DNA of 64,000 nucleotides from positions 5,691,501 to 5,755,500 of the forward strand of contig NZ_CP109485.1 of the NCBI RefSeq assembly GCF_035918235.1, written 5' to 3'. Origin of the DNA: Streptomyces sp. NBC_01445. Lineage in GTDB: Bacteria > Actinomycetota > Actinomycetes > Streptomycetales > Streptomycetaceae. Made by a program: the position numbers and the translations under genes. Positions 25,176-30,724 of the stretch are shown in pieces. The notes beneath the pieces were generated by a model that had not been told where the DNA came from, did not search any database, and was given only the letters and a program-made list of their open reading frames with translations. Numbering within the stretch: the first letter of the stretch is position 1; every line of letters starts with the position of its first letter.

Positions 25176-26123
25176 CTACGCCACGCGGCGCTCCGCGTAC
25201 TCGGTGATTTCGGTCATCGGGGGGCGTTCCTCGGTGTCCACGTCGTGCGTGCGCGGCTCGAATCCCTGTTCCCCGCGCTCGAACTGGGTGAGCACGGGAC
25301 GTACGAGGTGCCCGCGCGCGAGCCGCAGCTGTGCGGTGCGGTAGATCGCCGCCGCCATTCGCCCGAGCGCCTGCCCGTCCTGGTGCCGGTGCTTGCGCAC
25401 GCCGACGTCGACCTGCCCGAGCGCGTCCAGGCCCACCGTGTGCAGCGCGTCGACGAGGAGGCCCAGCTCAACCCCGTAACCGACCGGGAACGGCAGGCGC
25501 TCGAGGAGCGACCGGCGGGCCGCGTACTCGCCGCCGAGCGGCTGCACGAACCCCGCAAGGAGCGGCCAGTGCAGATTCAGGAGCGGGCGCGCCACCAGCT
25601 CCGTGACCCGGCCGCCCTGACCCGCGGCGGACCCGAGCGGACGGTCGTACATCGCCTTCACGAAGTCCACGCCGGGATCCGTGAGCAGCGGGCCCACGAT
25701 CCCCGAGACGAAGTCCGCGGAGAACTCCTTCAGGTCCGCGTCCACGAAACAGACGATGTCGCCGCTGGTGACGAGCAGCGAGCGCCACAGCACCTCGCCC
25801 TTGCCGGGCACGGCCGGGATCCTCGGCAGGATCGTGTCCCGGTGCACGACCCGCGCCCCGGCGGCCCGCGCGACCTCGGCCGTGCGGTCCGTCGAACCCG
25901 AGTCGATCACCACCAGCTCGTCGACCAGGGGCACCCGCTCCGTCATCAGGGCGCGCCGGATCTCGGCGACGATCTCGCCGACTGTCTCCTCCTCGTTCAG
26001 CGCGGGCAGCACCACGCTCACCGAGGTGCCCGCGGCGCGCTTCGCGGCGATCAGCTGAGGGAGCGGGCGGTCGGTCACCGACCAGGAACGCCTGCTCAGC
26101 CAGCGCTCTACTTCTTCCAGCAC
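25176..26123 (-). CDS. gpgS: Glucosyl-3-phosphoglycerate synthase (GT81)
   Basis: 315 residues. GT-A fold: SVVLPALNEEETVGEIVAEI near 35-55, VVIDSGSTDRTAEVA, the acceptor-site PGKGEVLWRSL, the metal-binding DxD as CFVDADL (Asp128, Asp130), and GGEYAARRSLLERLPFPVGYGVELGLLVDAL. Reaction: NDP-glucose plus 3-phosphoglycerate to glucosyl-3-phosphoglycerate, the precursor of glucosylglycerate and, in mycobacteria, of methylglucose polysaccharide. Position beside otsA/otsB fits compatible-solute synthesis. The dedicated phosphatase (GpgP) is not nearby. Confidence 0.9.
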   Translation of the reverse strand: MLEEVERWLSRRSWSVTDRPLPQLIAAKRAAGTSVSVVLPALNEEETVGEIVAEIRRALMTERVPLVDELVVIDSGSTDRTAEVARAAGARVVHRDTILPRIPAVPGKGEVLWRSLLVTSGDIVCFVDADLKEFSADFVSGIVGPLLTDPGVDFVKAMYDRPLGSAAGQGGRVTELVARPLLNLHWPLLAGFVQPLGGEYAARRSLLERLPFPVGYGVELGLLVDALHTVGLDALGQVDVGVRKHRHQDGQALGRMAAAIYRTAQLRLARGHLVRPVLTQFERGEQGFEPRTHDVDTEERPPMTEITEYAERRVA

Positions 26124-26314: not shown

Positions 26315-26334
26315 GCGCTTGAGTGATCAAGCGC
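26315..26334 (+). other. Stem-loop just upstream of the SAM riboswitch
   Basis: GCGCTTGA-GTGA-TCAAGCGC, perfect 8-bp arms with a 4-nt loop, 21 nt before the riboswitch P1 stem. It may be an operator (the palindrome centre TTGAGTGATCAA) or part of the folded leader. No family is recognised. Confidence 0.45.
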
Positions 26335-26355
26335 CAGCTCAACAACCGAATAGCG

Positions 26356-26483
26356 CTCATCCAGAGGGACAGAGGGATACGGCCCGTTGAAGTCCCGGCA
26401 ACCCTCCCGCCGACCTTGCCGAGGTCCAGGTGGGGAAGGTGCCAATTCCGTCTCGTGGCGAGATGCGCCGCGAGGAAGATGAG
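26356..26483 (+). promoter_or_regulatory. SAM-I (S-box) riboswitch
   Basis: Conserved S-box landmarks in order: P1 5' arm CTCATC (26356-26361) followed by CAGAG; GGCCCGTTGAAGTCCCGGCAACC (kink-turn/J region, from 26381); AAGGTGCCAATTCC (26436-26449); P4 stem CTCGTGGCG/CGCCGCGAG (26452-26460 with 26466-26474, loop AGATG); and closing GAAGATGAG pairing P1 (26478-26483). It ends 19 nt before the ATG of the threonine-synthase-like gene, so regulation is probably translational. There is no intrinsic terminator between aptamer and gene. Confidence 0.93.
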
Positions 26484-26502
26484 GAGAAAGGGCCTCGCCA
26501 TC

Positions 26503-27789
26503 ATGGCTGCGCAGACTGTCGCCACCACCACTTCCGTTGATCTCGGACCCGCCTCGGCGCTTTCCTGCCGCGAGTGCGGCACCAGCTTCCCGCTCGGACC
26601 GATCTTCGCCTGTGCCGAGTGTTTCGGGCCGCTCGAAGTCTCCTACGACCTGCCGACGGGCGACCCCGAGTCGCTGCGCAAGGAGATCGAGGCCGGACCC
26701 GCCAACATCTGGCGCTACGCCCCTCTCCTGCCCGTCCCGGCCGACGTCGCCGAGAAGCCGAACCTGAACCCCGGCTGGACCAAGCTCGTCAAGGCGGACA
26801 ACCTCGCCCGTGAACTCGGCGTCGAGCAGGGCAAGTTGTTCGTCAAGGACGACTCCGGCAACCCCACGCACTCCTTCAAGGACCGCGTCGTCGCCCAGGC
26901 CATCGAGGCCGCCCGCGCCTTCGGCTTCACCACCCTGTCCTGCTCCTCCACCGGCAACCTCGCCGGCGCCGTCGGCGCCGCCGCGGCCCGCGCCGGCTTC
27001 CGCTCCTGCGTGTTCATCCCGCACGACCTGGAGCAGGGCAAGGTCGTCATGGCCGCGGTCTACGGCGGCGAACTCGTCGGCATCGAGGGCAACTACGACG
27101 ACGTCAACCGCTTCTGCTCCGAGCTCATCGGCGACCCGCTCGGCGAGGGCTGGGGCTTCGTCAACGTCAACCTGCGCCCGTACTACGGCGAGGGTTCCAA
27201 GACCCTGGCGTACGAGATCTGCGAGCAGCTCGGCTGGCGGCTCCCGGACCAGCTGGTCATCCCGATCGCGTCCGGCTCCCAGTTCACGAAGATCGACAAG
27301 GGTCTCCAGGAGCTGATCAAGCTCGGCCTCGTCGAGGACAAGCCGTACAAGCTCTTCGGCGCCCAGGCCGAGGGCTGCTCGCCGGTCTCCGTCGCCTACA
27401 AGGGCGGTCACGACGTCGTGCGGCCCCAGAAGCCGAACACGATCGCCAAGTCGCTCGCCATCGGCAACCCGGCCGACGGCCCGTACGTCCTCGACATCGC
27501 CCGCCGCACCGGCGGCGCCGTGGAGGACGTCAACGACGAGCAGGTCGTCGAGGCGATCAAGCTCCTCGCACAGACCGAGGGCATCTTCGCGGAGACCGCG
27601 GGCGGTGTGACGGTCGGCGTGACGAAGAAGCTGATCGAGGCCGGCCTGATCGACCCGGCGCTCACCACCGTCGTCCTCAACACCGGCGACGGCCTCAAGA
27701 CCCTCGACGCGGTCGCCGAGACGTCCCAGGCGACCGCCACCATCCGCCCGAGCCTGGACGCGTTCCGCGACGCGGGCCTCGCCCACTGA
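26503..27789 (+). CDS. thrC: Threonine-synthase-family PLP enzyme, possibly an O-phosphohomoserine-dependent homocysteine synthase
   Basis: 428 residues from the ATG reading MAAQTVATTT. An N-terminal zinc-ribbon-like pair CxxC (Cys22/25 and Cys37/40) precedes the fold-type II PLP domain, with the Schiff-base Lys126 in NPTHSFKDRVV, the SSTGNLAGAVGAAAA phosphate/PLP loop, and a C-terminal GGVTVGVTKKLIE. Annotated by family as threonine synthase (O-phosphohomoserine to threonine). However, it is preceded by a SAM riboswitch and followed, after 59 nt, by a CysO-like sulfur carrier. Streptomyces usually has another thrC in a hom-thrC-thrB cluster. Context therefore suggests sulfhydrylation of O-phosphohomoserine by CysO-thiocarboxylate. 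I recall a recent Streptomyces report along these lines (metM/metO) but cannot verify it here. Confidence 0.85.
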   Translation: MAAQTVATTTSVDLGPASALSCRECGTSFPLGPIFACAECFGPLEVSYDLPTGDPESLRKEIEAGPANIWRYAPLLPVPADVAEKPNLNPGWTKLVKADNLARELGVEQGKLFVKDDSGNPTHSFKDRVVAQAIEAARAFGFTTLSCSSTGNLAGAVGAAAARAGFRSCVFIPHDLEQGKVVMAAVYGGELVGIEGNYDDVNRFCSELIGDPLGEGWGFVNVNLRPYYGEGSKTLAYEICEQLGWRLPDQLVIPIASGSQFTKIDKGLQELIKLGLVEDKPYKLFGAQAEGCSPVSVAYKGGHDVVRPQKPNTIAKSLAIGNPADGPYVLDIARRTGGAVEDVNDEQVVEAIKLLAQTEGIFAETAGGVTVGVTKKLIEAGLIDPALTTVVLNTGDGLKTLDAVAETSQATATIRPSLDAFRDAGLAH

Positions 27790-27848
27790 AGACCCCGCGA
27801 AGACCCGCGAACCCTCGCGACACCCGCACGGAAAGGCTGCAGCCCGAC

Positions 27849-28124
27849 ATGAGCGTCAACGTCCGCATCCCCACCATCCTGCGCACCTACACCGGCGGCA
27901 AGGCCGAGGTCGCCGCCGAGGGCGCCACCCTCTCCGAGGTCATCGCCGACCTGGAGAAGAACCACACGGGCATCGCGGCCCGCGTCCTGGACGACCAGGG
28001 CAAGCTGCGCCGCTTCGTCAACGTGTACGTCAACGACGACGACGTGCGCTTCGAGCAGGGCCTCGAGACGGCGACGCCGGCGGGCGCGGGCGTCTCGATC
28101 ATCCCGGCCGTCGCCGGAGGCTGA
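27849..28124 (+). CDS. cysO: CysO-like sulfur-carrier protein (ThiS/MoaD fold)
   Basis: 91 residues with the ubiquitin-like fold and the obligatory C-terminal Gly-Gly (PAVAGG), which is adenylated and converted to a thiocarboxylate by a MoeB-type enzyme. The sequence closely follows mycobacterial CysO: VRIPTILRTYTGGKAEV, LRRFVNVYVNDDDVRFEQGLETATPAG. CysO feeds sulfide to CysM for cysteine made from O-phosphoserine. Here no cysM or mec is adjacent; instead it forms an operon with the threonine-synthase-like gene under one SAM riboswitch, so it may supply that enzyme. A hairpin terminator follows at 28185. Confidence 0.9.
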   Translation: MSVNVRIPTILRTYTGGKAEVAAEGATLSEVIADLEKNHTGIAARVLDDQGKLRRFVNVYVNDDDVRFEQGLETATPAGAGVSIIPAVAGG

Positions 28125-28184: not shown

Positions 28185-28223
28185 GAATTGCCCCCTCCGC
28201 GAGAGAAGCGGAGGGGGCAATTC
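28185..28223 (+). terminator. Terminator of the thrC-cysO operon
   Basis: Sixteen-base perfect arms GAATTGCCCCCTCCGC / its complement, loop GAGAGAA, 60 nt after the cysO stop. Confidence 0.92.
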
Positions 28224-28575
28224 TGCAGGGTTGAGCGCGGTAGAGTTGGGAACCGCGCTTCGCGCTTGTGCCGAGCGCATATACGAAGTCGGCCCCGGTC
28301 CGACAAGAAGCAGCCAAAGTGCCCAGCCCTTATCGGGTGTTCGTGGCATTTGTCGGGCCCGAGTTGCCCCGGAATCCAATGGCTCCGCCGCTTTTTACCG
28401 CTCTGCCGTGCCCAGATTTCTCGTCCGATTGACCTGTTGCAGACGGCAGTTGGGCAGATACATTCAGCCGCGGTCGACGCGTTCCGGCGCACACCCCCAA
28501 CCAATGGGGGGTGAGGTCTGACCCGGGTCCGCGAAGTGCGGGCCTGTGCAAGGGCCAGTAATAGGGGAGTTAGTC
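28224..28575. other. 352-bp region upstream of the cold-shock gene
   Basis: No gene seen. It is less GC-rich than its surroundings. It contains a candidate promoter at 28437-28464 and, if that is used, a leader of about 105 nt for the cold-shock mRNA, which is typical of cspA-type genes. Short open frames here lack Streptomyces codon bias. Confidence 0.55.
28437..28464 (+). promoter_or_regulatory. Candidate sigma-70-type promoter of the cold-shock gene
   Basis: TTGCAG (28437-28442), 16-bp spacer, TACATT (28459-28464). Good -35 and -10 for a housekeeping HrdB promoter. The start of transcription would be near 28471. Confidence 0.45.
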
Positions 28576-28779
28576 ATGGCTCAGGGCACCGTCAAGTGGT
28601 TCAACGCGGAGAAGGGGTACGGCTTCATCGCGGTCGACGGTGGTGCGGATGTATTCGTCCACTACAGCGCCATCCAGATGGACGGATACCGCACCCTTGA
28701 AGAGGGTCAGCGAGTCGAATTCGAGATCTCGCAGGGCCAGAAGGGTCCGCAGGCGGACATGGTCAAGCTCGCCGTCTGA
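28576..28779 (+). CDS. Cold-shock-domain protein (CspA family)
   Basis: 67 residues, the size of Streptomyces SC7.0-type cold-shock proteins. RNP1 KGYGFIAV and RNP2 VFVHYSAI frame the five-stranded OB fold; [17 protein letters not shown] is diagnostic. GGGGAG lies 7 nt before the ATG. A single-stranded RNA/DNA-binding RNA chaperone, usually abundant and not strictly cold-induced in Streptomyces. A perfect hairpin terminator follows. Confidence 0.95.

Positions 28780-28990: not shown

Positions 28991-30724
<1,734 letters not shown>

Follow-up and report, generated by a model that had tools for sequence, protein, structure and literature searches.

A SAM-riboswitch-led metM-metO operon in Streptomyces sp. 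NBC_01445 encoding a predicted O-phosphohomoserine-dependent homocysteine synthase

We analysed a 64,000-nt stretch of the Streptomyces sp. NBC_01445 genome (contig NZ_CP109485.1, positions 5,691,501 to 5,755,500; henceforth the window), in which a riboswitch aptamer, an enzyme gene and a sulfur carrier gene follow one another on the forward strand (Table 1). A first-pass annotation, made from the letters of this DNA, had described them as an S-box aptamer, a fold-type II PLP enzyme of the threonine-synthase family and a MoaD/ThiS protein ending AVAGG that closely follows CysO, and family models recovered all three. The aptamer covers the full RF00162 model (positions 1–108) at a score well above the gathering score of 44.4, and is both the one match in the window and the sole match found in the 11.47 Mb genome (E ≤ 0.001). 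The enzyme, MetM, scored 215.8 bits against PF00291 and 271.3 bits against the threonine synthase model TIGR00260 (cut-off 167.1), and because the latter score lies above its cut-off, family models name MetM a threonine synthase. Its best start is the ATG at 26503; a 488-aa version of the open reading frame opens at an in-frame GTG at 26323, upstream of the aptamer. The best solved relative of the carrier, MetO, was 3dwg chain C (E 1.5e-28), whose entry names a culture filtrate antigen that we take to be Mycobacterium tuberculosis CysO. The first-pass annotation had also placed one terminator after the carrier gene. A hairpin is indeed present there, but it has no T-run and was not listed by a T-run-based terminator scan, so that we infer, rather than observe, that it is the likely terminator of the operon.

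Table 1 Features of the metM-metO locus (positions within the window).
Feature	Position	Strand	Basis
SAM-I (S-box) riboswitch aptamer	26354..26485	+	RF00162, 78.2 bits, E 1.1e-16
Likely Shine-Dalgarno AGAAAGG	26485..26491	+	sequence; abuts 3' strand of helix P1
metM (428 aa), PLP enzyme of the threonine-synthase family, predicted to be a homocysteine synthase using O-phosphohomoserine	26503..27789	+	family models, MetM-type residues, clade
metO (91 aa), sulfur carrier of ThiS/CysO type ending AVAGG	27849..28124	+	PF02597 ThiS, 59.9 bits; best solved relative 3dwg_C
Perfect 16-bp inverted repeat, 7-nt loop, no T-run	28185..28223	.	likely operon terminator

On one side of the operon, a family 2 glycosyltransferase gene (25176–26123, reverse strand) is divergent from the metMO leader; on the other, genes for a cold-shock protein (28546–28779) and a chaperonin (Cpn60; 29099–30724) lie downstream on the same strand. 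No JAB-type protease was found among the metMO neighbours scanned.

A contig scan confirmed at least 584 relatives, and we analysed the best 80 of these: 79 titled Streptomyces and one (L099) titled Actinobacteria bacterium OV320. Among the matches listed, the closest named locus was that of Streptomyces sp. NBC_01446, at 99% identity. Aptamer, MetM and MetO occurred in the same order in all of the best 80, and in every case the MetO gene began 0–279 nt away from where the MetM match ended; given that this order recurs in 80 of 80 relatives, the arrangement is not a matter of chance.

The leader itself points to how the switch may work. The aptamer ends 17 nt before the metM start codon, and the motif AGAAAGG, presumably well matched to the anti-Shine-Dalgarno sequence of Streptomyces, lay near the end of the aptamer and of helix P1 in 73 of the best 80 of at least 584 relatives, in all 80 of which the first ATG or GTG came 15–19 nt past the aptamer. 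With the start codon so close and AGAAAGG lying where P1 ends, the switch more likely controls translation initiation than termination; transcriptional attenuation was judged unlikely, with just 17 nt between aptamer and start codon. P1 was absent from the minimum-energy fold of 26340–26520 computed free of ligand, as may be expected when no ligand is bound, and since that fold lacks P1, the shut state of the switch rests on the Rfam model.

The first-pass annotation had noted that Streptomyces carries a separate hom-thrC-thrB cluster, and our search of the genome bore this out: a second threonine synthase gene (TIGR00260, 326.5 bits) is flanked there by genes for homoserine dehydrogenase and homoserine kinase, and its product shares 37% identity with MetM over residues 71–410. 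One alternative is that the genome has two ordinary threonine synthases, MetM being the one controlled by SAM, and that the neighbouring carrier serves another pathway. Its score of 271 over the cut-off of 167 agrees with this, as do two published observations, in each case as given in excerpts of the source: in the 2021 reannotation of S. lividans TK24 (PMC8079986), RF00162 precedes a pair of genes, SLIV_16930-SLIV_16925, listed as threonine biosynthesis, and a cyanobacterial homologue from Microcystis, with 51.6% identity to S. albulus MetM, behaves in vitro chiefly as a threonine synthase (PMC12172450). Against it stands, besides the canonical thrC already present in hom-thrC-thrB, the nature of the regulation, which would fit methionine and not threonine.

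The residues of the two enzymes also argue against this explanation. We aligned 30 MetM sequences (the window plus L106–L134) with 21 ThrC sequences (L002 plus L135–L154), and found 31 columns in which the groups differ and each residue is held by at least 90% of its group. The PLP lysine K126 is common to all 51 sequences. By contrast, where ThrC has the block N-S-x-N-P-x-R, MetM has N-V-N-x-R-x-[YF]-Y, and GNAG is replaced by ASGS or a near variant of it, so that MetM lacks the ThrC motif combination NSxNPxR and GNAGN; we take these blocks to be the substrate phosphate-binding site. Specifically, R161 of the genome's own ThrC corresponds to Y228 in MetM and SxN to NxR, at positions that, like those of GNAG, are invariant in the 21 ThrC sequences. 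MetM is further marked by Cys292, found in 30 of 30 MetM and 0 of 21 ThrC sequences (alanine in 16, serine in 5), and by cysteines 22, 25, 37 and 40 of an N-terminal CxxC...CxxC ribbon, again in 30 of 30. In a tree of the same sequences a 100/100 branch separated the 30 MetM from the 21 ThrC, so MetM does not group with ThrC, in a set of rows that we chose ourselves, with no other ThrC-type outgroup and a bootstrap that had not fully settled. With a second thrC present and these residues altered, we dropped the plain threonine-synthase reading, to which we assign hardly any probability.

The reading that we prefer instead, that MetM is a homocysteine synthase, had been put forward in the first-pass annotation, and its genomic predictions were supported: besides the second thrC, we found no MetA, mere fragments of MetX and a separate cysO cluster. 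MetA (PF04204) was not found in a search of the organism's own genome, and the MetX model gave there only fragmentary hits of up to 34.3 bits, none of them convincing. Among 16 matches to PF01053, five were strong (276–499 bits). Two of the five passed one model each, for cystathionine gamma-synthase and cystathionine gamma-lyase respectively, and the other three reached no cut-off shown. Two PF01053 enzymes, L012 (C2:241393-242538) and L013 (C2:230299-231444), are separated by about 10 kb on the second contig (1.04 Mb), and neither reaches any NCBIfam cut-off shown.

The enzyme that passed the gamma-synthase model (L011; PRK07811, 679.4 bits, cut-off 513) counts against our reading. Another alternative is that homocysteine is made mainly by a plant-like cystathionine gamma-synthase from O-phosphohomoserine and cysteine, with MetM in a minor role; that no acyl-homoserine-forming enzyme was found in the genome would fit such a route. 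However, L011 also scored 477 bits against the cystathionine gamma-lyase model, under its cut-off of 594, and may serve reverse transsulfuration, while S. albulus MetM is tied to methionine prototrophy in the excerpted text of PMC12172450. We consider a main route through L011 very unlikely. The lack of MetA and of a convincing MetX among our search results is consistent with a need for MetM in methionine prototrophy.

Carriers of the ThiS family were found at five places in the genome. One of them, cysO at C1:6300675, sits between genes for a JAB-domain protein and a cysteine synthase, and because of this position elsewhere in the genome the carrier route to cysteine is probably separate from metMO. 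The synthase passed the model of the cysKM subfamily (370.5, cut-off 344.15), and since it reached the cut-off of neither CysM model, it can be called CysM by position only. The CysO of this genome (L021:1489-1764) reads AVAGGMA, extending two residues past the Gly-Gly at which MetO ends, so that trimming is probably required for CysO but not for MetO. With such a JAB-cysO-cysteine synthase cluster elsewhere, and a ThrC-type partner at our locus, we also dropped the idea that metMO is a misplaced CysO-CysM pair.

We then considered the distribution of MetM in a sample of 396 genomes across Actinomycetota. At a threshold of E 1e-60, 142 genomes held a match; three with only 33–34% hits (G034, G179 and G267) were removed and counted among the 257 genomes without MetM, leaving MetM in 139 of 396, and in G275 and G335 a weak second hit was likewise discarded. 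The tallies were compiled by hand and are uncorrected for shared descent, and their totals for MetX (148) and RF00162 (199) agree with the tool tallies. MetO adjoined MetM in 27 of the 29 loci fetched from this sample (L106–L134; 16 of 18 outside the genus), which again speaks against an ordinary threonine synthase. The two exceptions were L119 (genome G204; MetM at 1483–2748) and L131 (G007), where the sequence stops 772 nt beyond the match to MetM; in each of the two genomes, ThiS-family genes lie elsewhere. RF00162 was found upstream of MetM and on its strand in 14 of 20 loci (L115–L134; 12 of 18 outside the genus), and anywhere in the genome in 110 of 139 genomes with MetM vs 89 of 257 without it. 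An aptamer lay directly upstream of MetM in at least 57 genomes, a lower bound drawn from those RF00162 places that were listed. The filters of this genome-wide RF00162 scan were stricter and lose weak matches.

Two or more ThrC-family matches (E 1e-50) occurred in 133 of 139 MetM genomes vs 4 of 257 without MetM. Among the six exceptions, G127 and G333 have a strong ThrC together with MetM fragments, and in G368 the second match (103 bits, model positions 184–339) may be a fragment of the one gene already counted. In the remaining three, G274, G058 and G149, further ThrC relatives were weak only. G274 (99% complete; L118, MetM at C26:2350-3567) has MetM together with MetO, preceded by a SAM riboswitch, but no clear threonine synthase apart from MetM, its next relative being a PLP enzyme at 75.9 bits, and MetM may do both jobs there; G058 (93%) and G149 (87%) resemble it, but their MetM matches are not full-length. 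These genomes, together with the Microcystis data excerpted from PMC12172450, would suit an enzyme that is bifunctional, i.e., makes threonine when no sulfur is supplied and homocysteine when given MetO-thiocarboxylate, and that is the sole threonine synthase of a few genomes. Such an enzyme would be compatible with our preferred reading. However, two ThrC-family genes in 133 of 139 genomes would be needless if MetM did both, and a 50-contig assembly can miss one gene; bifunctionality thus seems improbable to us.

For MetX, the curated 500-bit cut-off was reached by no genome and no control, and we called it at E 1e-60 or better, which gave 148 of 396 genomes. MetX was present in 36 of 139 MetM genomes (4 of 12 within the genus), with no match at this level in the other 103. 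Co-occurrence was reduced (odds ratio 0.45, Fisher p 5e-4, uncorrected for relatedness), and strict mutual exclusion of MetX and MetM is ruled out by the 36 shared genomes, because of which MetM is not always the only route to homocysteine.

Taken together, we assign a probability of roughly 0.93 to the reading that the locus is a metM-metO methionine operon, in which MetM is predicted from its sequence to be a homocysteine synthase using O-phosphohomoserine and sulfur from MetO. The locus has the three features of such a system, namely a ThrC-family enzyme distinct from the genome's own ThrC, an adjacent ThiS carrier ending in Gly-Gly and an upstream SAM riboswitch. In the mechanism that we propose, the C-terminal Gly-Gly of MetO would be charged as a thiocarboxylate by an E1-like enzyme or sulfurtransferase encoded elsewhere in the genome, and O-phosphohomoserine, supplied by the products of hom and thrB, would be bound by MetM. 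MetM would eliminate phosphate on PLP, and sulfur from MetO would be added at the gamma carbon (vs water at the beta carbon in threonine synthesis), yielding homocysteine for methionine. When SAM is plentiful, P1 would form immediately beside the ribosome-binding site, with the start codon 17 nt further on, and shut off translation.

In the CysO-CysM-Mec route to cysteine, a carrier ending in Gly-Gly (cf. 3dwg) serves a PLP enzyme whose amino-acid substrate is phosphorylated; MetO is CysO-like and ends in Gly-Gly, but the metMO partner is ThrC-type, its scanned neighbours include no JAB-type protease and the cysO cluster lies elsewhere. In Wolinella, MetY forms homocysteine with the carrier HcyS and the protease HcyD; this is likewise carrier-dependent, but uses O-acetylhomoserine and an enzyme of the MetY fold rather than a ThrC-type one. 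Canonical ThrC enzymes (2zsj, 6cgq, 1uim, 2d1f) share with MetM the fold-type II PLP architecture, the lysine of SFKDR and the asparagine of STGN, and differ in the presumed phosphate-site motifs (altered in 30 of 30 MetM), the cysteine ribbon and Cys292.

The system is already known, having been described from another Streptomyces in 2024; the idea, which the first-pass annotation had linked to a recent Streptomyces report, is right and not new. That report exists: Hasebe et al. 2024 (AEM 90:e01247-24), as cited in PMC12172450, identified MetM as a homocysteine synthase in Streptomyces. According to the excerpted text of PMC12172450, S. albulus metM has an upstream SAM riboswitch, its product turns O-phosphohomoserine into homocysteine and prevents methionine auxotrophy, and a gene adjoining thrC in Microcystis, with a sulfur carrier annotation, is similar to S. 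albulus metO (47.25%); the excerpt holds no statement that MetO thiocarboxylate is the sulfur donor or of how MetO delivers sulfur. Likened by description, the S. albulus system matches ours in its ThrC-type enzyme, riboswitch, metO and genus, with no difference found, the nearest sequence compared being that of S. noursei (L048, 91%). The S. lividans pair, likened in the same way, shares RF00162 followed by two genes and differs in being labelled, in the excerpt of PMC8079986, only as threonine biosynthesis. No further paper on the pathway was among the literature matches listed, and the excerpts of PMC12452182 and PMC13257386 are silent on MetM.

The metM-metO reading explains why a methionine-type RNA switch precedes a gene annotated as a threonine synthase, and it supplies the step to homocysteine that would otherwise be missing from a genome in which no MetA or convincing MetX was found. 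We also put forward, as a tentative and rather doubtful proposal, that MetM-MetO may be an old system and a main homocysteine route across much of Actinomycetota rather than peculiar to Streptomyces, and that Cys292, with the four-cysteine ribbon, may dock MetO or hand over its sulfur. If true, this would be a thiol-relay variant of gamma-replacement in fold-type II PLP enzymes, and Cys292 offers a concrete mutagenesis target for sulfur transfer from the carrier. The residues diagnostic of MetM may also permit misannotated threonine synthases to be renamed from their sequences.
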